DNA from: Clostridia bacterium | GTDB taxonomy: Bacteria; Bacillota; Clostridia; Oscillospirales; UBA644 | Assembly: GCA_017621705.1 (NCBI GenBank) | Contig: JAGASR010000034.1 | Location: 62,001-126,000 of the forward strand | DNA length: 64,000 bases | Direction: 5' to 3' | Part shown: piece by piece, positions 26,282 to 54,880 of the stretch | Numbering within the stretch: the first letter of the stretch is position 1 | Layout of the letters: each line of letters starts with the position of its first letter | The notes under the pieces: model-generated | What the model was told of the DNA's origin: nothing | Seen by the model: only the letters and a program-made list of their open reading frames with translations | Database searches by the model: none | Program-made: the position numbers and the translations under genes

Positions 26282-27568
26282 ATGAGATACGAAAATGAAG
26301 AAATTTATGCCGTCTGGATGATGTTATCCGCAGGTGACGGCAGTTCGCTGCTTTATAAGACCGTTGCGAATTTCAATGCCGCAGAGCAGGTCTATAAGTG
26401 CGACAAACGCGCGTTCGGAATTAATTTCAAAGAAGAAGAGACCGAGCGTTATTCCGATAAAAACCTCGATGCCGCGAAAAGGATCGTCGATTACTGCGCG
26501 CGCAACGAAATAAAGATCATTCCTTTTTCGTCGATGGAGTATCCGTTGGCGTTCCGCAATCTTGAAAAATCTCCGTGCGCGCTTTTCGTCAAAGGCAATC
26601 ATCCGTTTCACGAAAATAAGCCGTCGGTCGGCATCGTCGGCACACGTCAGGCGACTGCTTACGGCAAACGGATCGCCTCTGTGGTCTCGTATGAGCTTTC
26701 GTCGGCAGGCGTTATGATCGTCAGCGGCATGGCAAAAGGCATCGATACGCAGGCGCACAAGGGTTCGCTTTATATGAATAATCCGACGGTTGCGGTCGTG
26801 GCGGGCGGAGTTGACGTAATTTACCCGAAAGAAAACGAAGAGCTTTACGAAATGATCTGCTCGAACGGAGCCGTTATTTCAGAGCATCTTCCGAGAACGG
26901 GTGTGCGCTCGTTTCTTTTCCATATGCGAAACCGACTCATCTCTGCGCTTTCGGATGCGGTACTTGTCGTTGAGTCCGAGCCCGACGGCGGCTCGATGAT
27001 AACCGTTCGTTGCGCAATGAATCAGGGCGTTCCGCTCTTTGCGGTTCCGGGTCCGATCGATTCTCCGTTCAGCGTCGCCCCGAACCGTCTGATAAGCGAC
27101 AAAAGCGCTTCAATGCTTACAAATACGCAGGATCTGATCGATTTTCTCAATAAAAAGCACGGCGGAAATATCGCAATAACGAGAAGATCAAGCGTAAAAA
27201 TGAACTACAGCGAAAAAGAGGAAGAAAAGAAGAAAAAATCCAAAAAACCTCTTCCCGAGCTTCCCAAAGATGATATAGATATTCTTCTTACGGGTACCGT
27301 TCCCGAGACGGCTCAAAAAAAGCCGAAAAAACCGCCCGAACCCGTGGCGGTGCCCGAAACCGTCAAAATATCGTCCGAATACGATAATCTTTCCGAAACC
27401 GAAAAACGGGTTTATGACGTTATACGAAAAAATACCTCCGTATCCGTCGATAAACTTTGCGATGTTCTTACCGACCTCTCTTTTTCGGATATCGTTACGG
27501 TTATCGGCAAACTTGAGCTTCTCGATCTCGTTTGCGATACGGGACTGGGAAACTATAAAATAAGCTAA
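26282..27568 (+). CDS. dprA: DNA processing protein DprA/Smf
   Basis: 428 residues. The Rossmann-like DprA domain shows VGIVGTRQATAYGKRIASVV, SGMAKGIDTQAHKGSL, AVVAGGVDVIYPKENEEL and SEPDGGSMITVRCAMNQGVPLFAVPGP. A Lys/Pro-rich linker (about 300-350) leads to a C-terminal winged helix (SETEKRVYDVIRKNTSVSVD). DprA protects incoming ssDNA and loads RecA during transformation. Start at 26282: AAAGGA lies nine bases upstream. The stop codon is formed by the first AGCTAA of the following array. Confidence 0.94.
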   Translation: MRYENEEIYAVWMMLSAGDGSSLLYKTVANFNAAEQVYKCDKRAFGINFKEEETERYSDKNLDAAKRIVDYCARNEIKIIPFSSMEYPLAFRNLEKSPCALFVKGNHPFHENKPSVGIVGTRQATAYGKRIASVVSYELSSAGVMIVSGMAKGIDTQAHKGSLYMNNPTVAVVAGGVDVIYPKENEELYEMICSNGAVISEHLPRTGVRSFLFHMRNRLISALSDAVLVVESEPDGGSMITVRCAMNQGVPLFAVPGPIDSPFSVAPNRLISDKSASMLTNTQDLIDFLNKKHGGNIAITRRSSVKMNYSEKEEEKKKKSKKPLPELPKDDIDILLTGTVPETAQKKPKKPPEPVAVPETVKISSEYDNLSETEKRVYDVIRKNTSVSVDKLCDVLTDLSFSDIVTVIGKLELLDLVCDTGLGNYKIS

Positions 27569-27733
27569 ATTGCGAACAAGTTCGCAGCTAAATAATGCTT
27601 CGCATAGCTAAATAGCGCAAGTGCATCTAAATGCACTTAATGCAGCTAAATACGCAACAAAGTTGCGAGCTAAATAGCGCAAAGCGCATTTAATGCACTT
27701 AATGCAGCGATATTCGTTAAAAACGAGTGATTT
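27563..27733 (+). repeat. AGCTAAAT hairpin array between dprA and topA
   Basis: Units TGCGAA-CAAG-TTCGCA, ATGC-TTC-GCAT, an AGTGCA/TGCACT type, CGCAAC-AAA-GTTGCG, GCGC-AAA-GCGC and a final CGTT-AAAA-ACG type. Five AGCTAAAT linkers are present, the first supplying the dprA stop codon (AGC TAA). Confidence 0.9.
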
Positions 27734-27786
27734 TGAAACAGTTCAGAAAAATAAATCTTTAATATACAACAAACCAAAAACGCAAG

Positions 27787-27824
27787 AAAGGAAGCTTTCG
27801 CGGTTGCGAAAGCCGTAACTGAAA
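27787..27824 (+). promoter_or_regulatory. topA: Ribosome binding site separated from the topA start by a hairpin
   Basis: AAAGGA (27787-27792) is 32 bases from the ATG, too far for a standard Shine-Dalgarno. An 8-bp perfect hairpin GCTTTCGC-GGTT-GCGAAAGC (27794-27813) lies between and would shorten the distance to about 12 bases when folded. No other good ribosome binding site is near the ATG. Confidence 0.5.
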
Positions 27825-30023
27825 ATGGCAACAAAGACCACCGAAACCGCCGCAGAAAAGAAGACTACTGCAAAGAAAACGACGGCAAAGAAGACCAAAG
27901 TCGCCGCAAAACCCACAAAAAACCTGCTTATAATCGAGTCTCCGAATAAGATCAAATCGATAAAGAAGATCCTCGGTTCAAAATATGAAGTTCTCTCGTC
28001 GAAAGGTCATATCCGTGATCTTCCGTCGTCCCGTCTCGGCGTTGATGTCGAAAACAACTTCGAGCCCGAATATATCGTTTCGAGAAAAGACGGCAAATCC
28101 GCAGTCCTCAAAGAGCTCAAAGCCGCGGCTGCCGCAAGCAAGCATGTCTATCTCGCAACCGACCCTGACCGCGAAGGTGAAGCTATCGCATGGCATCTTG
28201 CGACTCTGCTGGGTCTCGATCCGCAGGATAATATCCGCGTAACTTTCAACGAAGTCACAAAATCCGCAGTTATCGCCGGCGTCGAAAACCCCAAGGGCAT
28301 CAATATGAACCGTGTTTCCGCACAGCAGGCAAGACGTGTTCTCGACAGAATAGTGGGCTATAAACTCAGCCCGTTCCTCTGGAAAAAAGTCAAAACAGGT
28401 CTTTCCGCAGGCAGAGTTCAGTCCGTCGCAACGAAGCTTATCGTTGACCGTGAGCGTGAGATCGAAGCGTTCGATCCCGAAGAATACTGGACCCTCGAAG
28501 CCGTTTTCGCAAAAGCAAATAAAGAATGGGTCGCAAATTTCTTCGGAACGACCGACGGCAAACTCCCGATCAACAGCAAAGAAGAAATGGATAAACTTCT
28601 TTCCGATCTTGACGGCACGGCGTACAGCATTTCCTCCGTCAAAAAGACCGAGCGTGTACGTCAGCCCAACCCCCCGTTTACAACTTCTTCGCTCCAGCAG
28701 GAAGCCTCCGCACGTCTCAATATGCGTCCTCAGCGCGCAATGAGCATCGCGCAGAACCTCTATGAAGGTATCGATGTCAAAGGCAGAGGCGCAGTCGGTC
28801 TTATCACATATATGAGAACCGACTCACTGCGTGTTTCCGACGAAGCCCGTATTTCCGCCGAAAACTTCATCAAAGAAACTTACGGCGCAAACTTCTATCC
28901 TGCTCAGCCCAGAGTTTTCAAGACCCGTGCATCTGCGCAGGACGCTCATGAAGCGATCAGACCGACCGACGTTACCCTCACCCCCGCAATTCTCCGCGAG
29001 AGCCTTACGACCGAGCAGTACCGTCTTTATAAAATGATATGGGAACGCTTTGTCGCATCCCAGATGGCTGCCGCTCTCTATCAGGGCACGAGCGTTGACG
29101 TTTCCGCAAAAGGCAAAAATTCCGGCACGGAATATATCTTCCGCGCATCGGATTCCAAACTTGTATTCCCCGGCTTTACCGCCGTTTATAATTACGGTGA
29201 CGATGAAGAAAAATCGTCCAAACGTCTGCCCGAGCTTGCGATCGGAGACCCTGCAGATCTCCGCAAACTCGAACCCGAGCAGAAATTCACCCAGCCGCCG
29301 TCCCGTTATACCGAAGGTTCGCTCGTCAAAGCGCTTGAAGAATACGGCATCGGCAGACCGTCAACTTTCGCAACTATCGTCGGCACCATCATCGAGCGCC
29401 GTTATGTTGAAAAGGACGGTAAACTTCTCCGCCCGACGTCTCTCGGCAACGTAACGACCGACGTTCTCACCGAAAACTTCAGCAATATCGTCGATATCGC
29501 ATTTACGGCAGGCATGGAAAGCGAACTTGACGAGATCGAAGAGGGCAACAAATCTTATCTCGACACGATGAACGGTTTCTACGGCGGATTTGCCGAGGAC
29601 CTTTCTGCCGCCGAAAAGAAGCTCGACGGTGTCAGAGTCGAAGTTCCCGACGAGGAAAGCGACGTCATCTGCGATAAATGCGGCTCTAAAATGGTTTATA
29701 AAGTCAGCCGTTTCGGCAGATTCCTCGCTTGCCCGAACTATCCCACCTGTAAAAATACGAAATCCATAATCGTCGAGACCGAGGGCAACTGCCCGATCTG
29801 CGGCGGCAAGATTATCGTTCGCCGTTCGAAAGCAGGAAAAACATACTACGCCTGCGAAAAAGCAAACGAATGCGGCTTTATGACCTGGGATATGCCGACA
29901 AAAGAAAAATGTCCGCAGTGCGGTTCGACGCTCTTCCGCAAGTTCAACCGCCTCTACTGCCAGAAAGACGGCTGCGGCTACGAGGGCAAGGTTGAAAGAA
30001 AGCAGACGGAAGAAGCTAAATAG
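27825..30023 (+). CDS. topA: DNA topoisomerase I
   Basis: 732 residues. A Lys/Ala/Thr-rich N-terminal extension of about 30 residues precedes the TOPRIM domain (LLIIESPNKIKSIKKILG and DPDREGEAIAWHL). The catalytic tyrosine is in GLITYMRTDSLRVS. Three C-terminal four-cysteine zinc ribbons are visible (CDKCG...CPNYPTC, CPICGG...CEKANECG, CPQCGS...CQKDGCG). It relaxes negative supercoils. It follows dprA as in many Firmicutes. Its stop codon (EAK then TAG) lies in the first repeat linker of the next array. Confidence 0.96.
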   Translation: MATKTTETAAEKKTTAKKTTAKKTKVAAKPTKNLLIIESPNKIKSIKKILGSKYEVLSSKGHIRDLPSSRLGVDVENNFEPEYIVSRKDGKSAVLKELKAAAAASKHVYLATDPDREGEAIAWHLATLLGLDPQDNIRVTFNEVTKSAVIAGVENPKGINMNRVSAQQARRVLDRIVGYKLSPFLWKKVKTGLSAGRVQSVATKLIVDREREIEAFDPEEYWTLEAVFAKANKEWVANFFGTTDGKLPINSKEEMDKLLSDLDGTAYSISSVKKTERVRQPNPPFTTSSLQQEASARLNMRPQRAMSIAQNLYEGIDVKGRGAVGLITYMRTDSLRVSDEARISAENFIKETYGANFYPAQPRVFKTRASAQDAHEAIRPTDVTLTPAILRESLTTEQYRLYKMIWERFVASQMAAALYQGTSVDVSAKGKNSGTEYIFRASDSKLVFPGFTAVYNYGDDEEKSSKRLPELAIGDPADLRKLEPEQKFTQPPSRYTEGSLVKALEEYGIGRPSTFATIVGTIIERRYVEKDGKLLRPTSLGNVTTDVLTENFSNIVDIAFTAGMESELDEIEEGNKSYLDTMNGFYGGFAEDLSAAEKKLDGVRVEVPDEESDVICDKCGSKMVYKVSRFGRFLACPNYPTCKNTKSIIVETEGNCPICGGKIIVRRSKAGKTYYACEKANECGFMTWDMPTKEKCPQCGSTLFRKFNRLYCQKDGCGYEGKVERKQTEEAK

Positions 30024-30310
30024 CGCAAGTGCATTTAAATGCACTTAATGCAGCTAAATTCGCAACAGAGTTGCGAGCTAAATAGCGCAAGGCGCAGCTA
30101 AATACGCAACAAAGTTGCGAGCTAAATAGCGCAAGGCGCAGCTAAATACGGCAGAGCCGAGCTAAATAGCGAACGGGGTTTGCAGCTAAATTGTGCAGAG
30201 CACAGCTAAATACGGCAAGCCGAGCTAAATTGCTTTGCAGTTGAAGCTCGTCGCAAGGCGAATACCGCCTGATGAATATCACTTGACAGCAATCAAATAT
30301 AACTTTTTAA
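30014..30310 (+). repeat. Long AGCTAAAT hairpin array between topA and fabG
   Basis: About ten units with ten AGCTAAAT linkers. Units include AGTGCA/TGCACT, CGCAAC-AGA-GTTGCG, GCGC-AAG-GCGC, CGCAAC-AAA-GTTGCG, GCGC-AAG-GCGC again, CGGC-AGA-GCCG, TGTGC-AGA-GCACA, CGGC-A-AGCCG-like and TGC-TTT-GCA. The pair CGCAAC.../GCGC... occurs twice in the same order, pointing to block duplication. After about 30243 the pattern decays, ending near a CAAATATAACTTTT remnant. Confidence 0.92.
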
Positions 30311-30330
30311 CATAGGGGGCGCAGAAAGTA

Positions 30331-31062
30331 ATGGAAAAAAAGACCGTTTTTATTTCGGGCGGCGCAAAAGGAATCGGTGCGGCGTGCGCCGAAGCGTTTG
30401 CAAAAAAAGGATATAATGTTGCCGTAAACTACAAAACGAGCGCCGTTGCCGCCTGCGAACTCAAAAACAGGCTTGAAAAACTGGGTGCCGCGGTGCTGAC
30501 GCTCGAGGGTGACTGTTCAAACGAAAAAAGGGTCGCCGAAATGATTGCCGAGACCGAAAAAACGTTCGGTAAGATCGATGTTCTCGTCAACAACGCAGGA
30601 ACCGCCCTTATCAAGCTCTTTACCGAAACTACCGAGCAGGAATGGGACACGATCTTTGCAAACAACTTAAAAAGCGCGTTCTTCTGCTCGAAAGCCGTCT
30701 GTCGCGGCATGATAAATAACGGCGGCGGCTCGATCGTCAATGTCTCTTCAATGTGGGGCATAACGGGCGCATCGTGCGAGGTCGCGTATTCCGCAACAAA
30801 AGCAGGCATGATCGGGTTTACAAAAGCGCTCTGTAAAGAGCTTGCGCTTTCGAATATACGTGTAAACTGCATCTGCCCGGGCGTTATAATGACCGATATG
30901 AACGCTTCCCTCGGTGATGACGTTCTTTCCGATCTGACGCAGGATATTCCGCTTTCACGTCTAGGCACTCCGAATGACGTTGCGGAGGCTGTTGTTTTCC
31001 TTGCGGAGGCGGAATATGTCACGGGGCAGATACTCGCCGCGGACGGCGGAATGACTGTTTGA
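30331..31062 (+). CDS. fabG: 3-oxoacyl-ACP reductase-like short-chain dehydrogenase
   Basis: 243 residues of the classical SDR fold. The cofactor motif is SGGAKGIGAACAEAFAKKG, followed by NNAG, the catalytic Ser in VNVSSMWG and the YSATKAGMIGFTKAL catalytic Tyr/Lys. The sequence resembles FabG, which reduces 3-oxoacyl-ACP in fatty acid synthesis, but SDR substrate assignment from sequence is uncertain. It is not in an obvious fab operon, although plsX and an ACP-like gene lie 1.5-2.5 kb downstream. Start ATG with AGGGGG upstream. Confidence 0.82.
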   Translation: MEKKTVFISGGAKGIGAACAEAFAKKGYNVAVNYKTSAVAACELKNRLEKLGAAVLTLEGDCSNEKRVAEMIAETEKTFGKIDVLVNNAGTALIKLFTETTEQEWDTIFANNLKSAFFCSKAVCRGMINNGGGSIVNVSSMWGITGASCEVAYSATKAGMIGFTKALCKELALSNIRVNCICPGVIMTDMNASLGDDVLSDLTQDIPLSRLGTPNDVAEAVVFLAEAEYVTGQILAADGGMTV

Positions 31063-31229
31063 TATGCGAATAAATTCGCAGCTAAATTGACCTTCGGTCA
31101 GATAAATACGGCAAAGCCGAGCTAAATTTGCCTGCGGCAAGCTAAATTCTGTTATTATCAAGTTAAAAGCATACTTTTAGCTGTGCGAAGCACAATTTAG
31201 CTGCATTCATCGAATGCAATTTAGCTTTT
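31062..31229 (+). repeat. AGCTAAAT array with an internal orientation switch, fabG to trmFO
   Basis: The first part reads GCGAAT/ATTCGC, GACC-TTC-GGTC, CGGC-AAA-GCCG and TTGCC-TGC-GGCAA with AGCTAAAT linkers. After about 31165 the linker reads AATTTAGCT (reverse orientation) around GTGC-GAA-GCAC and a GCATT/AATGC unit. It is the only array here with both orientations, which suggests an inversion or two merged elements. It ends at the trmFO ribosome binding site. Confidence 0.88.
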
Positions 31230-31238
31230 GGAGATATT

Positions 31239-32552
31239 ATGGATAAATTAACAATAAATGTAGTCGGCGCAGGTCTTGCGGGATGCGAGGCGGCGTGGCA
31301 GGCGGCAGAACGTGGGGCGCATGTCCGTCTCTACGAAATGAAGCCGCAAAAGAAGATCCCGGCGCACAGTTCGGAGGATTTCTGCGAGCTGTGCTGTTCG
31401 AACTCTTTCCGCGCGGAGGGGCTTTCGAACGCTATCGGGCTTTTAAAAGAAGAGCTTCGCGCTATGGGTTCTCTCGTTATGAAATGCGCGGATGCGACCC
31501 GTGTCCCCGCAGGCGGCGCTCTTGCCGTTGACAGGGATGCGTTCCCGAAAATGGTAACGGAGCATATAAAAAATCACCCGAATATCGAAATAATCGCAAA
31601 AGAAATAACGTCTCTCGATTTTGACGAGCCGACCGTCATTGCATCGGGTCCGCTCACTTCCGAGCCGCTTGCAGATGCGATCGTCGAGTTTTTCGGCGCG
31701 GACGGGCTCCACTTTTTCGATGCCGCGGCGCCGATCGTTTCCGCAGAAAGCATCGATATGGATAAAGCGTACCTTGCCTCACGTTACGGAAAAGGCACGC
31801 CCGACTATATAAACTGCCCCATGTCCGAGGACGAATACAACGCATTTTACGCAGAGCTTATCGCCGCGGAGACCGTCGAAATGAAAGATTTCGAAAATAA
31901 CGTTTTCGAAGGCTGTATGCCCGTCGAGGTCATGGCATCGAGAGGCAAAGATACGCTTCTTTTCGGGCCCTTAAAACCTGTCGGTCTTCCCGACCCGAAG
32001 ACGGGAAAGACACCGTATGCCGTCGTTCAGCTCCGTAAAGATAATGCGGAATCTTCGATGTATAACCTCGTCGGTTTTCAGACGCATCTCAAATTCCCGG
32101 AGCAGAGACGTGTTTTCGGCATGATCCCGGGTCTTGAAAATGCGGAATTCGTGCGTTACGGCGTTATGCACCGCAACACGTATATCGATTCTCCGCGCCA
32201 TCTCACCGCCGCTTTTGAGGCAAAAAAGCGCAAAGGTCTCTTCTTTGCAGGTCAGATGACGGGTGTCGAGGGCTATATAGAGAGCTGTTCTTCGGGCTTT
32301 GTCGCAGGCATCAATGCGGTGAGAAACGAACCGTATATTTTCGATCCGAAGACCGCGATCGGCTCGCTCGCGCATTATATCAGCAACCAAACGGTCGTTG
32401 ATTTCCAGCCGATGAACGTAAATTTCGGCATCTTTCCGCCGCTCGAATTCACGGGCAAAAAGCCGAAAAAAGCCGACCGCAAAGAGATGTATTCCCGGCG
32501 CGCGCTCGAAATTATCAAAAATACCGAATTTTATATAAATAAGGAAGATTGA
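31239..32552 (+). CDS. trmFO: Methylenetetrahydrofolate--tRNA-(uracil-5-)-methyltransferase TrmFO
   Basis: 437 residues. The FAD-binding motif [20 protein letters not shown] opens the protein, followed by the TrmFO-specific [19 protein letters not shown] and [20 protein letters not shown]. It makes m5U54 in tRNA with folate and FADH2, and is a paralogue of MnmG. GGAGATATT precedes the ATG. The plsX ribosome binding site lies within its last codons. Confidence 0.96.
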
Positions 32553-32554
32553 AT

Positions 32555-33550
32555 ATGAAGATCATAGTTGACGTAATGGGTGCCGACCACTCTCCCGACG
32601 TTATGGTAACCTCCGCTGTCCGTGCCGTAAAAGAGCTCGGAACAGAAATTATCCTCGTTGGCAAAAAAACTGAAATCGACCGTGTTCTTGCCGAAAATAA
32701 CCTCTCGGCGAACGGTATCGGAATTTACGATGCCGAAGACGTTATAACAATGGAGGACGAGCCGATCTCCATCCGTAAAAAACCGAATTCGTCGCTCGCA
32801 GTCTGCCTCAATCTTCTCAAAAACGGCGAAGGCGATGCTCTCGTTTCCGCAGGAAACTCCGGCGCTCTTCTCGTCGGCGCAACGCTTTTCGTTCGCTGTA
32901 TCAAAGGTGTCCGCCGCGCTGCCATGGCGCCCGTAATGCCCGTCAAAAACGGTATGCTTATGATTGCGGACTCCGGTGCGAATATCGAATGTAAGCCCGA
33001 AATGCTCGAACAGTTCGCAGTCATGGGCTCTGTTTATATGAAAAATGTCCTCGGCATCGAAAATCCGCGCGTAGGTCTTGCAAATAACGGCGCCGAAGAA
33101 ACGAAAGGCACGGATCTCTATGTCGAGACCCACAAAGTCCTCAAAGCCAATAAAAAGATCAATTTTGTCGGCAACGTCGAGGGTAGGGGAGTACCGATGG
33201 GCGAATGCGACGTTCTTGTCTGCGACGGTTTTACGGGTAATCTGATCCTCAAAACTTACGAGGGCGCAGGAAAAATGTTTGCGGACGAGATCAAAAATAT
33301 GTTCAAAAAGAGCATAATTTCAAAGATCGGCGCGCTTTTCGTAATGGACGGCATCAAAGACCTCAAAAAACGTATGGACTATAAAGAGATCGGCGGCGCA
33401 GTAATTCTCGGCATATCGAAACCCGTTATAAAAGCTCACGGTTCTTCGGACGAGAAGGCATTTTTCAGCGCGATCCGCCAGGCTGTAAACTTCGTTTCGA
33501 CCGATGTTATAACAAAGATCACCGACGAAATGGCAAAGGAAGCTGAATGA
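32555..33550 (+). CDS. plsX: Phosphate acyltransferase PlsX
   Basis: 331 residues. It starts MKIIVDVMGADHSPDVMV, with ALVSAGNSGALLVGAT and GVPMGECDVLVCDGFTGN, typical of PlsX. The enzyme converts acyl-ACP to acyl-phosphate for PlsY. The start is the ATG at 32555 with AAGGAAG nine bases upstream; the TTG six bases earlier overlaps the trmFO stop. It is followed one base later by the ACP-like gene and then rnc, the usual plsX-acpP-rnc order. Confidence 0.95.
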   Translation: MKIIVDVMGADHSPDVMVTSAVRAVKELGTEIILVGKKTEIDRVLAENNLSANGIGIYDAEDVITMEDEPISIRKKPNSSLAVCLNLLKNGEGDALVSAGNSGALLVGATLFVRCIKGVRRAAMAPVMPVKNGMLMIADSGANIECKPEMLEQFAVMGSVYMKNVLGIENPRVGLANNGAEETKGTDLYVETHKVLKANKKINFVGNVEGRGVPMGECDVLVCDGFTGNLILKTYEGAGKMFADEIKNMFKKSIISKIGALFVMDGIKDLKKRMDYKEIGGAVILGISKPVIKAHGSSDEKAFFSAIRQAVNFVSTDVITKITDEMAKEAE

Positions 33551-33551
33551 T

Positions 33552-33782
33552 ATGCAGATCTTTAACCGTTTAAAACCGATCATTGCCGATATTTTTGACG
33601 TTGAAGAAGACGAGCTGACCCCGAAGACCGACCTTTTCGAAGAGCTCGGCGCCGATGAATACGACATGATCGAGCTTTCGATGATAATCGAGGAAGAATT
33701 CGAAAAAACCGTAAAACTCCCGAAAAAAGGACCGCTGACAATGGCGAAGCTTGCGGAGAAAATAGAGAAAAGCGATAATTAA
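33552..33782 (+). CDS. Acyl-carrier-protein-like protein lacking the phosphopantetheine serine
   Basis: 76 residues, the right length and place (plsX-acpP-rnc) for an acyl carrier protein. The helical ACP pattern is preserved: IIADIFDVEEDELTPKTDLF, then an ELGAD segment, then IELSMIIEEEFEKTVKLPKK. The conserved DSL motif whose serine carries the 4'-phosphopantetheine reads DEY (GAT GAA TAC at about 33654-33662). The serine position is glutamate, so standard activation is impossible. It may be a non-carrier regulator or docking protein, with the working ACP elsewhere, or a sequence error, though two residues differ from DSL. Confidence 0.85.
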   Translation: MQIFNRLKPIIADIFDVEEDELTPKTDLFEELGADEYDMIELSMIIEEEFEKTVKLPKKGPLTMAKLAEKIEKSDN

Positions 33783-33866
33783 CCGCAATTCATAGATGCG
33801 AATGAATTGTTTCTCTGAAACATGAATTGCTCTGCGAGCATCGCAGACCGTCAACATATAAATAAT
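33783..33866 (+). repeat. Short hairpin array with ATGAATTG linker before rnc
   Basis: CAATTCAT opens the stretch, and ATGAATTG occurs twice, flanking GTTTCTCTGAAAC (stem GTTTC) and then a CTCTGCGAG unit. This is another constant-linker, variable-stem arrangement, only two or three units long, starting a few bases after the ACP-like stop. Confidence 0.5.
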
Positions 33867-33890
33867 GAAAGGAACTCGAAACTGTACAAG

Positions 33891-34592
33891 ATGAAAAACC
33901 CGTTGTTGCCCGAGATCGAAGAAAAAGTAGGGCTTTTGGAAAAGAAGATAAACTACGTTTTCAAAAATAAAAAACTTGCCGCCGATGCGCTGACACATTC
34001 GTCGTTCTATAACGAGCATAAAAAAGAGAGCCGTTCGAACGAGCGACTTGAATTTCTCGGCGACTCCGTGCTTTCGATAATCACCTGCGAATATCTTTAT
34101 ACGCATCTTAACGAGCCCGAGGGAATGCTCACGAAGCTCAAAGCGGCGCTCGTCTGCGAAGATTCGCTTTATACTTTTGCGGTGTCGAAAGGTCTCGGGG
34201 AGTGTCTTTTGTTCGGCAAAGGCGAAAGAAGTTCGGGCACGGTCCGCAAATCGACGCTTGCCGACGCTGTTGAGGCTGTTCTCGGCGCGATCTATCTTGA
34301 CAGCGGCATGGACGAAGGAAAAAAATACATATTGCCGTATCTGATCGAGGCGGTAGGGGAGTCGGACGTTCTTCACGACTGGAAAACGACGCTCCAGGAG
34401 ATCGTCCAGAAAAACCGCGGTGAGATCCTTTCTTACGAGATAGTCGAAGAATCGGGCCCCGCGCACGATAAGAATTTCGTCTGTCATGTCAAGATCAATT
34501 CCAACGTTCTCGCCGAAGGCTCGGGCCATTCCAAAAAGAAAGCCGAGCAGGCGGCTGCAAGGGCTGCGCTTGAGCTGATGGGAATAAGATGA
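33891..34592 (+). CDS. rnc: Ribonuclease III
   Basis: 233 residues. The RNase III signature is NERLEFLGDSVLSIITCEYL, the second acidic cluster is ADAVEAVLGAIYLDSG, and a C-terminal double-stranded RNA binding domain ends AEQAAARAALELMG. It cleaves dsRNA, including rRNA precursors. I use the ATG at 33891. AAAGGA lies 16 bases before it but only 8 bases before an in-frame CTG at 33882, so a CTG start is possible. Confidence 0.94.
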   Translation: MKNPLLPEIEEKVGLLEKKINYVFKNKKLAADALTHSSFYNEHKKESRSNERLEFLGDSVLSIITCEYLYTHLNEPEGMLTKLKAALVCEDSLYTFAVSKGLGECLLFGKGERSSGTVRKSTLADAVEAVLGAIYLDSGMDEGKKYILPYLIEAVGESDVLHDWKTTLQEIVQKNRGEILSYEIVEESGPAHDKNFVCHVKINSNVLAEGSGHSKKKAEQAAARAALELMGIR

Positions 34593-34622
34593 GGTAAGAA
34601 GTAAGAGGTAAGAAGTGTTATA

Positions 34623-35153
34623 ATGAAAAAAATTATTGCGATAATTCTCTGTTTTCTGCTTCTTTCGGCGTGTGCGCCTGCGGAAAACGGAGAGGATATA
34701 AAAATGAATGAAGAATTGACGGAAAGTACGGATGATGCGGTCTCCACGGGCGGAATGATGGGCATGGTAAACCCGATCTCTGCGTACGACTCCGCGGAGG
34801 AAGTGGAGAGCGTAACCGGCATATTTTTAAATATCCCCGAAAGAGCCGAAAATACCGCTTTTTCGACGATCACCGGAACGATCGCGCAGGCGAAATTTAC
34901 GCTTGACGGCATCGATTATACTCTCCGCGCATCGAAACAAGCGCCCACCGCCGCACTTCACGGAATTTACGCCGAGGCTGTCTCCACCGAGGGATTTGCA
35001 ACGGCGGGCGGCCTTACCGTCACCGCAACAAATCTCGGAAACGAATATTCCGTCTGCGAATGGGAATATGACGGCGCATTCTACAGCCTTTCGCGCGACG
35101 GCGTCGAGGATATGTCGATGGTTGTCGAGATGATAACGGGCGAAATAAATTGA
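34623..35153 (+). CDS. Hypothetical lipoprotein
   Basis: 176 residues. A signal peptide MKKIIAIILCFLLLSACAPA with lipobox LSAC predicts a lipid-anchored extracellular protein. The mature part has a flexible acidic linker, then NPISAYDSAEEVESVTGI and a beta-rich region (FTLDGIDYTLRASKQ, YSVCEWEYDGAFYSLSRDG). I do not recognise the family with certainty. The upstream 30 bases contain two copies of GAGGTAAGAAGT. It ends one base before the next ATG, so it is in the rnc transcription unit. Confidence 0.75.
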   Translation: MKKIIAIILCFLLLSACAPAENGEDIKMNEELTESTDDAVSTGGMMGMVNPISAYDSAEEVESVTGIFLNIPERAENTAFSTITGTIAQAKFTLDGIDYTLRASKQAPTAALHGIYAEAVSTEGFATAGGLTVTATNLGNEYSVCEWEYDGAFYSLSRDGVEDMSMVVEMITGEIN

Positions 35154-35154
35154 G

Positions 35155-36135
35155 ATGAAAAATAATAAACACGCCACGATTCCCGTTTTCGTTCCGCATT
35201 TTGCGTGCAAAAATGACTGCGTTTTCTGCGATCAACGGAAAATCTCGGGTGCGCAGAAACCGCCCGACGATCTCGAAGCTTTCCTTTTCAGCTCCGCAGA
35301 GGGGCTTGCGGGTCGGTTTTCGAGTGCCGATATCGCATTTTTCGGCGGCAGTTTTACGGGTATCGAGGAGCCGCTGATGCGCTTTTATCTCGAAGCGGCG
35401 AAAAAAACAAGAGAAAAATTCCCCGAAATTACGGGTATCCGTCTTTCGACCCGTCCCGATTATATTTCCGAAGATATTCTCGATATTCTCGAGGAATACG
35501 GAGTTACGACCGTCGAACTGGGGTCGCAGAGCATGGATGATACGGTTCTTCTGCTTTCGGAGAGAAATCACTCTTCCGAGGCGACCGTCAAAGCCGCAAA
35601 ACTGATAAAAAGCAGAGGATTTTCCCTTGTTTTGCAGACCATGACCGGGCTTCCGGGCGACAGCCGTGAAAAAGATCTGATGACTGCGAGAAAAGTTGCG
35701 GATCTTTGTCCCGATGCGGTGAGAATTTATCCGTGCGTCGTTTTAAAAGGCACGAAGCTCGAAAAAATGGCGGCGGACGGACTGTATAAACCGCAGACCG
35801 TTGAAGAAGCGGTCGAGATCTGCGCCGAGCTTATCGAGTTTTACAGAAGCCGCGGAATTGAAATATTGCGTGTCGGGCTTCATTCATCGGATCTTACGCA
35901 GAACGACAGCGTCGTTTCGGGCGCTTTTCATCCTGCGTTCGGAGAACTTTGCGAGAGCGAGATAATTTACCGTAAGCTCCGTGAAAAGATAATACAAAAT
36001 AAAATAAGGTCGGGCGTTTTTGCGTTTGCCGTAAACGATGCGGACATTTCGAAGACCGTCGGCCAGAAGAAGAAAAATATTCTTCGCCTTGAAAAAGAAT
36101 TTGATATTCAAATTAAAATATTAAAAAAATTATAA
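35155..36135 (+). CDS. Elp3-like radical SAM protein
   Basis: 326 residues. The Fe-S motif FACKNDCVFCDQRK is at residues 17-30, followed by FFGGSFTGI, IRLSTRPDYI, VELGSQSM and MTGLPGDS, the pattern of the Elp3/MiaA-MiaB-like radical SAM family without the acetyltransferase domain. It is a predicted SAM-dependent radical enzyme, perhaps acting on tRNA; the substrate is unknown. The family commonly follows rnc in Clostridia, with smc and ftsY next, but here sugar-metabolism genes follow. Confidence 0.87.
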   Translation: MKNNKHATIPVFVPHFACKNDCVFCDQRKISGAQKPPDDLEAFLFSSAEGLAGRFSSADIAFFGGSFTGIEEPLMRFYLEAAKKTREKFPEITGIRLSTRPDYISEDILDILEEYGVTTVELGSQSMDDTVLLLSERNHSSEATVKAAKLIKSRGFSLVLQTMTGLPGDSREKDLMTARKVADLCPDAVRIYPCVVLKGTKLEKMAADGLYKPQTVEEAVEICAELIEFYRSRGIEILRVGLHSSDLTQNDSVVSGAFHPAFGELCESEIIYRKLREKIIQNKIRSGVFAFAVNDADISKTVGQKKKNILRLEKEFDIQIKILKKL

Positions 36136-36154
36136 GATTGTGAGGTTATTAATC

Positions 36155-36937
36155 ATGAGTAAACCCATTATTGCGGCTCAGACTTTCACTATTTTCCCCC
36201 ATATTCAGACCGACGAAGATTTCGTTGTCTCCATGAAGAGACTTAAAGATATCGGTTTTAACGTCGTTCAGCTTTCGGGACATACGAAAGTCACCCCCAC
36301 CGTTATCACAAACACCTTGAAAGAACTCGATCTCAAATGCTGTATTACCCATTCTCCCTTCGACAGACTTCTCAACGATTTCGACGCTATCGTAAAAGAA
36401 CATCAGGACTGGGGCTGTAAAGTTATCGGTACCGGCGGTATCCCCGGCGGCTATGCACACACCGTTGAAGATATCAACAGATTTATCAAAGATGCAAACG
36501 CTATCGGCGATAAACTTTCCGCATACGGCATGAAATTCGCTTACCACAACCACTCTTTTGAGTTTAAGAGAGTAGACGGTCAGACGAAGATCATGGATAT
36601 GTTCCTTGACGGTTTCAACGAAAACGTTGAATTCATCCCCGACTATTTCTGGCTCCAGCACGGCGGCGTAAACGTTTACGAATGGCTCTATAAATATAAG
36701 GGCAGAACTTCCACCGTTCATTTCAAGGACTACAGCATCGATCCCCAGACCAACCAGCCCGACGTTTGCGAGATCGGCTACGGCAACATGGACTACGTCA
36801 AACTCGCAAAGATCACCGAAGAAATCGGCGCTACCTATGCGGCTATTGAACAGGACGCAAGCCATATCGACCGTTTCGACAGCATCGAAATGTCTTTCAA
36901 ATATATGAGAGACGTTCTCGGAATGCCCACTAAATAA
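36155..36937 (+). CDS. Sugar phosphate isomerase/epimerase (TIM barrel)
   Basis: 260 residues of the xylose-isomerase-like TIM-barrel family (AP endonuclease 2 superfamily). Likely metal and active-site motifs are YHNHSFEF near residue 133, STVHFKDY near 190 and AAIEQD near 230. The substrate is not determinable. The start is the ATG at 36155 with GAGG nine bases upstream; an in-frame GTG lies 15 bases earlier. It is followed by a paralogous gene and an SDR, suggesting hexuronate or polyol breakdown. Confidence 0.85.
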   Translation: MSKPIIAAQTFTIFPHIQTDEDFVVSMKRLKDIGFNVVQLSGHTKVTPTVITNTLKELDLKCCITHSPFDRLLNDFDAIVKEHQDWGCKVIGTGGIPGGYAHTVEDINRFIKDANAIGDKLSAYGMKFAYHNHSFEFKRVDGQTKIMDMFLDGFNENVEFIPDYFWLQHGGVNVYEWLYKYKGRTSTVHFKDYSIDPQTNQPDVCEIGYGNMDYVKLAKITEEIGATYAAIEQDASHIDRFDSIEMSFKYMRDVLGMPTK

Positions 36938-37040
36938 GCTAAATTGCGAACAAGTTCGCAGCTGAATAATGCTTCGCATAGCTAAATAGACCTTCGGTCA
37001 GCTAAATTGCTTCGCAGTTTAAACTTTCCGTAAGGCGAAA
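36938..37040 (+). repeat. AGCTAAAT hairpin array between the two sugar isomerase genes
   Basis: Units TGCGAA-CAAG-TTCGCA, ATGC-TTC-GCAT, GACC-TTC-GGTC and TGC-TTC-GCA with four linkers (one AGCTGAAT), then a TTTC/GAAA unit. It starts immediately after the TAA stop. It sits inside a likely operon, so it would be present in a polycistronic mRNA. Confidence 0.91.
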
Positions 37041-37064
37041 ACTTTATAATAAGGAGTTATTCCT

Positions 37065-37859
37065 ATGTACAACTTTACTCTTTCCGCGTTCGGCGACGAG
37101 ATCCACGAGAATATAACGACTCAGATGGACGTTCTCGAGCGCAACGGTGTAAAATTCATCGAAGTACGTAACGTCAACGGCGTTAACATCTCCGACTGGA
37201 AGCCTGCCGAGTTCAAAGAGATCATCAAGCAGATGAAAGACCGCGGTTTCGGCGTTTCTTCTCTCGGTTCCCCGATCGGCAAGATCGGCATTACCGACGA
37301 TTTCGCACCGCATCTCGATAAATTCAAAAACACTCTTGATGTTGCCGCAGTCGCAGAGACAAAATATATCCGTATGTTCAGTTTCTATATGCCTCAGGAC
37401 AAGTGCGCTGAATACAGAGACGAAGTTCTCGAACGCTGGAACGCTTTCATCGAAGCCGCAAAAGGCTATGATGTTACGCTTCTCCACGAAAACGAGGGCG
37501 GCATCTACGGTCAGTGCGCAGAAAACTGCTATGACCTTATCACAACTCTCAACACCGAAAAGGTCAGAGCTGTTTACGACCCCGCAAACTTCGTCGTTCA
37601 CGGTCACGATACCCTCAAGGCGTTCGATCTGCTTAAAGATTACGCCGTTTACTATCATATCAAAGATGCTATCAAAGGTGTTATGGTCGTTCCCGCCGGC
37701 GAAGGCGAAGGCAATGTTCCCTGCATTATCGAACAGCTCAAGGAACGCGGCTTTAACGGCTTCCTCTCTCTCGAACCGCATCTTGCAACCGGCGATATCG
37801 CAGTCGGCGGCGATGAAAAATTCGAAAGAGCTCTCGGTGCTCTCCGTAAACTTATCTGA
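37065..37859 (+). CDS. Sugar phosphate isomerase/epimerase, second paralogue
   Basis: 264 residues of the same TIM-barrel superfamily. Motifs include LLHENEGGIYG near residue 138, AVYDPANFVVHGHD near 170, YYHIKDA and LSLEPHL near the end, consistent with a metal-dependent isomerase/epimerase. AAGGAG lies upstream of the ATG. It is only distantly similar to the preceding gene, so the two probably act on different intermediates. Codon use is strongly C-ending, suggesting good expression. Confidence 0.86.
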   Translation: MYNFTLSAFGDEIHENITTQMDVLERNGVKFIEVRNVNGVNISDWKPAEFKEIIKQMKDRGFGVSSLGSPIGKIGITDDFAPHLDKFKNTLDVAAVAETKYIRMFSFYMPQDKCAEYRDEVLERWNAFIEAAKGYDVTLLHENEGGIYGQCAENCYDLITTLNTEKVRAVYDPANFVVHGHDTLKAFDLLKDYAVYYHIKDAIKGVMVVPAGEGEGNVPCIIEQLKERGFNGFLSLEPHLATGDIAVGGDEKFERALGALRKLI

Positions 37860-37890
37860 AACCCAAATTCTTTTTTAGGAGAATAAAAAT

Positions 37891-38709
37891 ATGTTCAGTT
37901 TAAAAAACAAAACAGCCATTCTTCTCGGCGGCGCAGGCGTTCTCGGTGCCGATATGGCTAAAGGTCTTGCCGCTGCGGGCGCAAATATCGCAGTTGCAGA
38001 CTTTGCAGAAGCGAAAGCAAAAGCTCTCGCCGCTGAAATTGCCGAAAAATACGGCGTTAAAGCAGAGGGATATTTTGTCAACGCAATGGAAAAATCGGAG
38101 ATCGAAAAATGCCGTGACCTTATCCTCAAAGATTTCGGCTCCTTCGATATCCTTGTCAACGCCGTAGGCGGCAACAAACCTGCAGCTACCACCAACGACA
38201 AGACCGACTTTTTCAACCTCGACAGCAAGGCCGTAGGCGACGTTATGATCCTCAACCTTATGGGCGGTGCTATGCTTCCCTGCCAGGTTTTCGGACCCGA
38301 CCTCGTAAATAACGACAACGGCGGCGTTATCATCAATATCTCTTCGATGAACGCGTTCCGTCCGCTCACCCGTATTCCCGGCTACAGCGCCGCTAAAGCC
38401 GCAGTTTCCAACTTTACACAGTGGCTCGCAGTCGATATGGCTCAGAAATACGGCGAAAAGATCAGAGTAAACGCTATCGCTCCCGGTTTCTTCCTCACCG
38501 ATCAGAACCGTTTCCTTCTCACCAACGAAGCTGACGGCTCCCTTACAAAACGCGGTGAACAGATCCTTACCCACACCCCGATGGGCAGATTTGGCGATCC
38601 CGAAGATCTTATCGGTACCCTCGTATGGCTCTGCTCCGATGCTTCCAAGTTCGTTACCGGCATCGTAGTTCCCGTTGACGGCGGCTTCTCCGCTTACTCA
38701 GGGGTATAA
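37891..38709 (+). CDS. SDR oxidoreductase, probable D-mannonate oxidoreductase (UxuB-like)
   Basis: 272 residues. The Rossmann motif is LLGGAGVLGADMAKGLAAAG, the NAVGG segment follows (VNAVGGNKPAATT), and the catalytic serine and tyrosine are in INISSMNAF and YSAAKAAVSNFTQWLAVDM. The NAVGGNKPAATT stretch resembles the Bacillus SDR-type mannonate/fructuronate oxidoreductase; this would fit hexuronate catabolism with the two isomerases, but is an inference. AGGAG precedes the ATG. The stop lies in a hairpin (38708-38728). Confidence 0.8.
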   Translation: MFSLKNKTAILLGGAGVLGADMAKGLAAAGANIAVADFAEAKAKALAAEIAEKYGVKAEGYFVNAMEKSEIEKCRDLILKDFGSFDILVNAVGGNKPAATTNDKTDFFNLDSKAVGDVMILNLMGGAMLPCQVFGPDLVNNDNGGVIINISSMNAFRPLTRIPGYSAAKAAVSNFTQWLAVDMAQKYGEKIRVNAIAPGFFLTDQNRFLLTNEADGSLTKRGEQILTHTPMGRFGDPEDLIGTLVWLCSDASKFVTGIVVPVDGGFSAYSGV

Positions 38710-38728
38710 GAACAGCAAATCTGTTCTT
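38708..38728 (+). repeat. Stop-anchored hairpin after the UxuB-like gene
   Basis: AAGAACAG-CAAAT-CTGTTCTT, an 8-bp perfect stem whose left arm contains the last two bases of the TAA stop codon. No T-run follows. Confidence 0.65.
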
Positions 38729-38776
38729 CGTATTCAGATATCTACTATATTATAATAAGGAGAAACGTGTAATAAC

Positions 38777-39364
38777 ATGAATCTTATACTCGTAGGTCTG
38801 CTTTTTATACTTTTCAAGTATGATTACGCATTTTTCAGCCAGAACGTTGAAATGACGATCATGATCGACGTTCTTCCGGACTTTGTCGGCTATATGCTCA
38901 TCTGGTTCGGCCTCGAAAAAGCGTCGACGGCGAACCGTTGGTTCAAAGAGAGCCACACGATCGCAACGGGCATGATGATCGTTACGTTCATTACGCTCGT
39001 CTCCTCGCTGAGCTTTTTCCTCTCACCGCTGCTCAATTCTCCCGACGGACAGATCTTTGCAGGCTTCTTTGCTATCGTCAATCTGATAGTAAGCCACGCA
39101 GGCAGTCTGATCTTCGGCTTCACGATGATATTCATGTTCATGTTCTCGTCGGCACTCGGTTATTCGATGCAGACGCAGGAACGCGGATTTTCGTGCGGTC
39201 TTATGTACGTTTTCTCCGTTGCGTATACGGTTCTCGCCGTTGCGTATATGGTCAATCAGTTCATAAATCTCCCGATCCCGCTTGACTGGATATCCGGCGG
39301 CATTGGTATTGTTTTCATTATATCTTCATATTTTATAATGGAAAAGATCGAAGAGCTCAAATAA
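38777..39364 (+). CDS. Hypothetical membrane protein
   Basis: 195 residues with about five hydrophobic segments (residues 1-15, 28-47, 60-82, 95-125 and 135-190). It carries a MIDVLPDFVGYMLIWFGLEK segment seen in small uncharacterised Firmicute membrane proteins. The C-terminus is charged (EKIEELK). No function can be assigned. A large hairpin array follows directly. Confidence 0.72.
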   Translation: MNLILVGLLFILFKYDYAFFSQNVEMTIMIDVLPDFVGYMLIWFGLEKASTANRWFKESHTIATGMMIVTFITLVSSLSFFLSPLLNSPDGQIFAGFFAIVNLIVSHAGSLIFGFTMIFMFMFSSALGYSMQTQERGFSCGLMYVFSVAYTVLAVAYMVNQFINLPIPLDWISGGIGIVFIISSYFIMEKIEELK

Positions 39365-54194: not shown

Positions 54195-54204
54195 GTATAA
54201 CTTG

Positions 54205-54233
54205 TTGACATTCTGCGCATATTATGTTATAAT
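54205..54233 (+). promoter_or_regulatory. Promoter of the RelB/YafQ pair
   Basis: A perfect TTGACA (54205-54210) and a perfect TATAAT (54228-54233) with 17-base spacing lie about 23 bases upstream of the antitoxin ATG, which has AAGGAG nine bases upstream. Confidence 0.85.
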
Positions 54234-54255
54234 AATAACAAAGGAGATGACTATT

Positions 54256-54537
54256 ATGCCCAAAGTATCAACAAATATCTCAATCGACGCCGAAACCAAA
54301 ACTCAAGCGCAGGCACTTCTTTCAGAGTTTGGCATGGACCTCTCGACCGCTGTCAATATTTTTCTTAAACAGATGGTCTATACCGGCGCGTTCCCTTTCG
54401 AAATTACGAGAAACATACCCAACAAAGCAACCCTCGATGCCATCGCAGAGTATCAATCCATGAAAAATTCTCCGGAAAATTACAAAAAATATAACAACGT
54501 AAATGATATGCTGGAGGATATTTTGAGTGAAACTTAA
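54256..54537 (+). CDS. RelB/DinJ-family antitoxin
   Basis: 93 residues. It starts MPKVSTNISIDAETKTQAQA and contains FGMDLSTAVNIFLKQMVYTG and GAFPF, the ribbon-helix-helix DinJ/RelB pattern. It would repress its own promoter and neutralise the toxin encoded next, whose GTG overlaps its last codons. The start at 54256 follows AAGGAG; upstream in-frame residues include the promoter and are not coding. Confidence 0.93.
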   Translation: MPKVSTNISIDAETKTQAQALLSEFGMDLSTAVNIFLKQMVYTGAFPFEITRNIPNKATLDAIAEYQSMKNSPENYKKYNNVNDMLEDILSET

Positions 54538-54880
54538 GATCGTCCCGTCAAACCAATTTAAAAAAGATCTGAAACTCGCAAAAAAACGCGGCCTCGATCT
54601 CTCTGAATTATCCGCTGTAATTTCTGTTCTCGCAAACGGTGAACCGCTCGATCAAAAATACCGCGATCACCCCTTGATCGGTGATTACAACAGCTTTCGC
54701 GAATGTCATATCCGCCCCGATTGGCTCCTCGTTTATAAAATAGATAACGGAGAACTCCTCTTTTTCTTGCAAGAACCGGCTCCCACAGCGATTTATTTTG
54801 ATATTTTAACAGGAGAAATACTATATTTAGTATTTCTCTCTTTTTATAACACTAAATCTATGATTTATTACATTTCCTGA
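54527..54880 (+). CDS. YafQ-family mRNA interferase toxin, frameshifted near the C-terminus
   Basis: The GTG-initiated frame is 117 residues. Residues 1-81 match YafQ (FKKDLKLAKKRGLDLSE; DHPLIGDYNSFRECHIRPDW; LLVYKI), including the two catalytic His and the Asp. The expected C-terminal segment with the last catalytic His is not in this frame but in the -1 frame: after the TTTTT run at 54761-54765 it reads ARTGSHSDLF followed by TGA (54799-54801), just before a terminator. The written frame instead runs through the terminator to 54880. The intact toxin would have about 91 residues. It is either a mutated toxin, a recoding site or a sequencing error in the T-run. Confidence 0.8.
   Translation: MKLKIVPSNQFKKDLKLAKKRGLDLSELSAVISVLANGEPLDQKYRDHPLIGDYNSFRECHIRPDWLLVYKIDNGELLFFLQEPAPTAIYFDILTGEILYLVFLSFYNTKSMIYYIS
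54811..54845 (+). terminator. Intrinsic terminator of the toxin-antitoxin pair
   Basis: GAGAAATACTA (54813-54823), loop TATT, TAGTATTTCTC (54828-54838), followed by TCTTTTT. It starts about ten bases after the in-frame stop of the restored toxin, which supports that stop as the original end. Confidence 0.9.

Follow-up and report, generated by a model that had tools for sequence, protein, structure and literature searches.

The trmFO-plsX-acpX-rnc Locus

The window, i.e., the whole stretch of 64,000 nucleotides analyzed here, contains a conserved trmFO-plsX-acpX-rnc block, the genes of which lie on the + strand. The block opens with a GIDA-family gene at 31239..32552, identified by its PF01134 match and by synteny, which we take to be trmFO. 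It is followed by plsX (32549..33550; PF02504, E=3.3e-107), encoding acyl-ACP:phosphate acyltransferase, and then by a serine-less ACP-like gene at 33552..33782, here named acpX. One base separates the plsX stop from the acpX start. acpX encodes 76 aa plus a stop; its ATG is at 33552 and its stop codon at 33780-33782. A ribosome-binding-site-like AAGGAAG, recognized by eye on the same strand, sits 9 bases 5' of the ATG (33536..33542). The next gene, rnc, encodes RNase III and is listed as an ORF at 33822..34592 (PF14622, PF00636, and the dsrm domain PF00035), the homologous part of which starts further in. A radical SAM protein gene (35155..36135, + strand; PF04055 and PF16199), placed also by synteny, comes after rnc in several relatives. 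A sequence-only reading of this DNA had described an acpP-like gene in the usual plsX-acpP-rnc place, with the DSL motif reading DEY and the carrier serine missing; the ORF, its coordinates, and the motif are confirmed.

A promoter/terminator scan, the hits of which are consensus matches only, found no terminator-like sites on the + strand between 31239 and 33822. An Rfam scan of 27000-39000 gave no match. It is likely that acpX is co-transcribed with its neighbors.

The family under study (f1), a family of gut and rumen bacteria, is represented by 20 genomes from seven genera, and its members include Candidatus Geddesella stercoravicola. Spacing was measured in 18 of these genomes. In all 18, acpX is the gene immediately 3' of plsX, the distance from plsX stop to acpX start ranging from -8 to +89 bases; acpX and rnc are spaced by 77 bases or less in 17 of the 18. 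PlsX was found in 19 of the 20 genomes, the other (G007) giving no plsX match. In genome G003 the pair is split: two contigs end here, one with foreign genes right after plsX and the other with foreign genes right upstream of acpX, and acpX and rnc are still together. By ORF reading these foreign genes are restriction-modification-like, and one is a DUF6602 gene (locus L054, 7591-10001; locus L064, 2531-3222). In genome G008, a KilA-N domain gene (locus L042, 5350-6225) sits between acpX and rnc, making a gap of 1,053 bases. acpX survives both insertions.

Two other features of the window may be recorded. A FabG-like short-chain dehydrogenase gene (30331-31062) lies between topA and trmFO; it occurs in genus relatives and is absent from the remaining genera of the family that were read. 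Further along, a RelB-family antitoxin gene is followed, with an 11-base overlap, by a YafQ-family toxin gene (54202-54880), an ordinary type II toxin-antitoxin pair.

AcpX Is an ACP without the Carrier Serine

Both its sequence and its predicted fold identify AcpX as an acyl carrier protein. Its PF00550 match is above the curated cut-off (E=2.1e-07, 31.5 vs 20.8 bits). NCBIfam ACP models also match (best E=1.5e-12), with none reaching its curated cut-off (best 47.2 bits vs 71), a miss that proves little alone, as the Ser-bearing, FASII-linked ACP2 described below misses as well (62.9 vs 71). An AlphaFold2 model, built on an alignment of the window protein and the named loci, has a pLDDT of 91.5 and a pTM of 0.79. 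The top PDB matches of this model in Foldseek are ACPs, with TM to query mostly 0.7–0.8. Thus, as had been proposed from the sequence, the ACP scaffold is retained despite DEY.

The difference lies in the motif that receives the prosthetic group. In place of the canonical G-A-D-S-L-D, AcpX reads G-A-D-E-Y-D. Alignment with Ser-bearing ACPs places E36 and Y37 (33657..33662) at Ser36-Leu37 of D-S-L, the codons being GAA at 33657-33659 and TAC at 33660-33662. That is, the serine that a functional carrier uses for 4'-phosphopantetheine is Glu36 in the window protein.

Structure models cover the window protein and a Ser-bearing control, L139, built with the same rows (pLDDT 91.7). The modelled AcpX has the ACP helical bundle, with helixes at 2–15, 36–50, and 64–73, though helix III is absent; the control has it at 56–61. 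Hence the helix that borders the acyl pocket of a functional carrier is missing from the window-protein model. At its place is an LPKKGP loop, L56-P61 (33717..33734). The loop occurs in 7 of the 20 family members, and the other 13 have a more canonical stretch there in the alignment.

Serine Loss Is Family-Wide and acpX Is under Selection

An acpX orthologue is present in 20/20 family genomes, and Ser stands at position 36 in none of them. The residue is Glu in 16, Leu in two, Phe in one, and Val in one. The motifs are DEY (eight), DEF (three), DEL (two), and DEM, DEQ, DFI, DLP, DLQ, DVM, and EEE (one each). Nor is there a Ser anywhere at aligned positions 33–40 in any of the 20 proteins. As to the question raised earlier of whether orthologues share DEY, the loss of serine is shared by all 20 and the exact DEY by eight. 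Sequencing or assembly error is ruled out as the source of DEY, since Ser is absent in 20/20 genomes with varied codons.

The acpX ORF is full-length in all 20 genomes, at a mean pairwise identity of about 46%. NG86 dN/dS values for acpX range from 0.068 to 0.137 in seven of eight pairs; the eighth pair, G001-G005, was set aside as saturated (dS 27). For comparison, rnc gives 0.011–0.140 and plsX 0.035–0.124, and trmFO pairs fall in a similar range. A pseudogene is ruled out by the dN/dS values together with the invariant columns described below. acpX is under purifying selection and is neither an error nor a decaying gene.

The Genome Keeps Other ACPs, FASII, and the Modifying Enzyme

The genome to which the window belongs has four PF00550 matches, acpX included. 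Two are Ser-bearing stand-alone ACPs, on contigs C22 (ACP1) and C39 (ACP2), and the third, on contig C1, is a carrier domain that forms part of a protein of 990 residues. ACP2 has DSL and opens an operon of FabK, FabD, FabG, FabF, AccB, FabZ, AccC, AccD, and AccA, as named by NCBIfam. In the vicinity of ACP1 are ruvX and a DegV-family gene. Other ACPs thus exist in the genome, and the earlier supposition that one of them serves fatty acid synthesis agrees with the place of ACP2 in the FASII operon.

Across the family, 18 of the 20 genomes yielded a Ser-bearing ACP1, the two without it being 61% and 71% complete. A phosphopantetheinyl transferase match was found in 17/20 genomes, including all 10 good ones, and PlsY in 18/20. 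The serine loss cannot be put down to a missing FASII pathway or a missing transferase, as the FASII operon is complete and the transferase is present. With Ser-bearing ACPs, FASII, and the transferase all in place, it follows that only the acpX copy left carrier duty.

Ancestry and Distribution

A scan for PlsX relatives gave 80 named loci. The gene after plsX encodes a Ser-less ACP at eight, all of them in the family, and a Ser-bearing ACP at 19. At 42 loci rnc directly follows plsX with no ACP, a state that characterizes whole neighboring lineages (e.g., L079, L082, and L098). Of those remaining, rnc was not found at 10 and one (L146) is unclassified.

The PlsX tree has 79 rows and keeps 59 of the 80 named loci, leaving out eight family duplicates and 13 near-duplicates or late rows. 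On it, the Ser-less loci form one side of a branch with an SH-aLRT of 91, which is below the tool's starred level; their clustering was matched by 0/500 shuffles. Their neighbors on the tree are loci that have dropped the ACP. Serine is the ancestral state for ACPs, and it is on this ground that a single loss is read from the tree, which is unrooted. Among Ser-bearing ACPs, those linked to plsX are nearest to acpX (0.38–0.51 identity), the ACP1 of its own genome being at 0.14–0.34. Therefore, acpX is an old plsX-linked acpP minus its serine, and the neighboring lineages lost the gene instead. We suggest that acpX descends from the Ser-bearing acpP that other families in the order still carry in the plsX-rnc interval, and that the serine may have been lost once, before the family diversified.

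A wide spread of the trait was not found in order-, class-, or phylum-level searches. In the order-wide search, which read 30 loci among matches from 295 genomes, 21/21 sequences read outside the family keep Ser; the search that found the family orthologues covered a minority of the weaker outside matches. The DNA pattern A-D-E-x-D-x-x-E, run over a class-wide sample of 391 genomes (30 of them with loci), listed 50 places, and a stricter pattern run over 398 phylum-wide genomes listed five. In each list the sole ACP is the window's own, these patterns being blind to replacement of Ser by residues other than Glu.

Residues Kept and Residues Drifted

An alignment of 20 Ser-less proteins, 18 ACP1s, and 20 plsX-linked Ser-bearing ACPs shows which positions were kept. 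In the Ser-less set, eight columns do not vary at all: I14, F15, L32, D38, E41, E47, E48, and E49. In addition, D35 is conserved in 19 proteins, with Glu in the remaining one, and M44 is Met in 17 of 20. The helix II region of the window protein, D35-F50 (33654..33701), keeps the docking residues D35, D38, E41, M44, E47, and E48, of which D35, D38, and E41 are ACP interface residues tested in published work. Position 37, by comparison, carries at least five residue types, and V40, fixed in 19/20 of the Ser-bearing plsX-linked ACPs, is free in the Ser-less set. The C-terminal half of AcpX is variable.

Mean entropy makes the same point. In the Ser-less set it is 0.17 bits for docking positions (35, 38, 41, 44, 47, and 48) and 2.19 bits for pocket positions (36, 37, 40, 43, 54, 59, and 62). 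The corresponding docking/pocket values are 0.51/0.61 bits for ACP1 of the family genomes and 0.26/1.14 bits for the plsX-linked Ser-bearing ACPs. The two sets of positions were chosen after the columns were viewed, so the permutation value of 0/10,000 is descriptive. To summarize, the helix II partner-docking residues are nearly fixed, and the prosthetic-group and acyl-pocket positions have drifted.

Position 14 (33591-33593) is an unexplained family mark: it is Ile in 20/20 Ser-less proteins whereas it is Gln in 19/20 Ser-bearing plsX-linked ACPs.

Relation to Known Systems

Elsewhere in the order, the counterparts of acpX are the canonical plsX-linked acpPs (e.g., L053 and L139). They share its place and fold and are its closest sequences (to 0.51 identity), but they keep D-S-L or D-S-V, and the L139 model has helix III.

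Of the two closest precedents, the mitochondrial ACP (mACP) of Plasmodium falciparum is alike in kind: mACP has the ACP fold, has the Ppant serine replaced by Phe, is armless, and is selected as a protein-binding subunit (PMC8547962). acpX is likewise a conserved ACP in which the Ppant serine has been replaced. The settings differ, as mACP works in an organelle without FASII and the matching transferase, where it binds Isd11-Nfs1 (PMC8547962). In the acpX case FASII and the transferase are present, the replacement is mostly Glu, and the gene lies between plsX and rnc.

The other, Enterococcus faecalis AcpB, offers the parallel in gene position. AcpB is a second, divergent ACP whose gene, in many Lactobacillales, sits directly 3' of plsX and seems to share its transcript; it has a PlsX-linked role in the regulation of fatty acid synthesis, with feedback by exogenous fatty acids (PMC6509188). 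Unlike acpX, AcpB keeps its serine, is phosphopantetheinylated (holo), and is acylated by PlsX (PMC6509188). AcpX, judged by the absent serine, would be neither phosphopantetheinylated nor acylated.

A third precedent is apo-ACP itself. A published account, citing Keating 1995, has apo-ACP inhibiting a phospholipid acyltransferase and an obligate-apo mutant suppressing growth (PMC4736557). Apo-ACP and the S-to-A mutants are armless like AcpX, but they are products of laboratory overexpression or mutation, not of a natural dedicated gene.

Proposed Role of AcpX and Rival Explanations

Without a phosphopantetheine arm, AcpX would carry no acyl chain, and it is presumably unmodified in the cell. 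It retains the acidic helix II face that ACPs use to dock enzymes. Since the docking face is kept while the arm and pocket have been dropped, action by docking is the simplest account. Rather than carrying, AcpX probably binds or regulates other proteins, and a non-carrier docking role is, in our judgment, very likely.

The full proposal is more tentative. We suggest that AcpX may be an ACP that stays apo throughout, carries nothing, and acts as a regulator by docking onto enzymes that bind ACPs, PlsX being the likeliest of them; to this reading we give somewhat less than an even chance. As to the partner taken alone, PlsX is the leading choice, at a similarly guarded level, owing to gene position, the fact that AcpB works with PlsX, and the inhibition of acyltransferase by apo-ACP. 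AcpX would occupy the ACP-docking site of PlsX, encoded on the same transcript, and so tune or stabilize acyl-phosphate formation. In effect, the genome would encode, in fixed form, the inhibition of a phospholipid acyltransferase already known for apo-ACP.

Operon position is compatible with either PlsX or RNase III as partner, and the partner tests single out neither. Family-specific signature columns, sought in 18 of the 20 genomes (17 for TrmFO), number 0/101 in PlsX, 6/87 in RNase III, and 10/226 in the control, TrmFO. Partial distance correlations with acpX, computed over 17 genomes, are -0.15 for PlsX, 0.28 for RNase III, and 0.23 for TrmFO; the acpX-plsX correlation vanishes once rnc and trmFO are controlled for. 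The absent co-adaptation signal and the split of plsX from acpX in G003 count against the PlsX reading. Furthermore, with no ACP at 42 of the 80 related plsX loci, PlsX there needs none in general. The earlier idea of a non-carrier scaffold or regulator of PlsX or RNase III therefore holds as to the lost carrier serine, and these tests favor neither named partner.

If the position next to plsX is mere ancestry, AcpX could be a general decoy, binding to a number of FASII enzymes or to the phosphopantetheinyl transferase and setting overall flux by competing with holo-ACP1 and ACP2. This is the best of the alternatives, though unlikely. The kept residues are a generic helix II docking face, no data point to PlsX alone, and the position is inherited, other families having the Ser-bearing ancestor type in the corresponding position. 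A broad competitor would be expected to be costly, however, as overexpressed obligate apo-ACP slows growth (PMC4736557). Glu36 and Ile14 (Ile in 20/20), moreover, look specific rather than generic.

Binding and modulation of RNase III, the nuclease encoded next, is less probable again. acpX lies within 77 bases of rnc in nearly all genomes measured and stays with it in G003, and RNase III has family-specific columns and the highest partial correlation. Neither figure is clearly above the TrmFO control, the KilA-N gene splits the two genes in G008, and we know of no mechanism by which an ACP face would bind RNase III.

We find it slightly more doubtful that AcpX is a relic, i.e., a jobless protein whose ORF is kept to couple plsX-rnc translation, or one in slow decay. 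Such a relic would fit the tight spacing and overlaps, the dropping of the gene at 42/80 related loci, and the variable C-terminal half, but not a dN/dS near 0.1, full length in 20/20 genomes, and eight invariant residues at so low a mean identity.

It is more doubtful still that AcpX moonlights, in iron-sulphur metabolism or elsewhere, as a structural subunit of some complex such as a cysteine desulphurase. Against this idea, Isd11 belongs to eukaryotic mitochondria, where it serves as an adaptor, and the trmFO-plsX-acpX-rnc block contains no iron-sulphur gene. For it there is the Ser-less Plasmodium ACP, in which the substituted Phe contacts Isd11 (PMC8547962). Likewise, AcpX keeps both D35 and D38, which E. 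coli ACP uses to bind IscS, although changing S36 to Thr abolished IscS binding by that ACP (PMC13343975).

Finally, a carrier by other means, with the arm on another residue or a substrate directly on Glu36, would explain the strong preference for Glu (16/20) but is very improbable given Leu, Phe, or Val at position 36 in 4/20, no Ser at 33–40 in the 20, and no predicted helix III in the window protein.

Significance

Ser-less ACP in Plasmodium and plsX-linked auxiliary ACPs in Lactobacillales are known. In the open literature searched, we found no report of a bacterial Ser-less ACP family, nor of the combination seen here, in which such an ACP stands beside plsX family-wide with FASII intact. 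Annotation pipelines would label AcpX a plain acyl carrier protein, and caution is warranted.

ACPs are usually defined by the arm. An armless, selected family alongside FASII separates docking from carrying and is, in this sense, a natural experiment: whatever its partner, AcpX shows ACP residues kept for docking alone. If PlsX is bound, an arm-free regulation of membrane-lipid supply would be revealed. A bolder version, which we regard as possible but unlikely, is that the family has made the plsX-linked ACP a regulatory subunit that is permanently apo and devoted to the acyl-phosphate step, setting the diversion of acyl-ACP to phospholipid. If that is true, bacteria would have a mode of control that works purely through docking and needs no acyl group.
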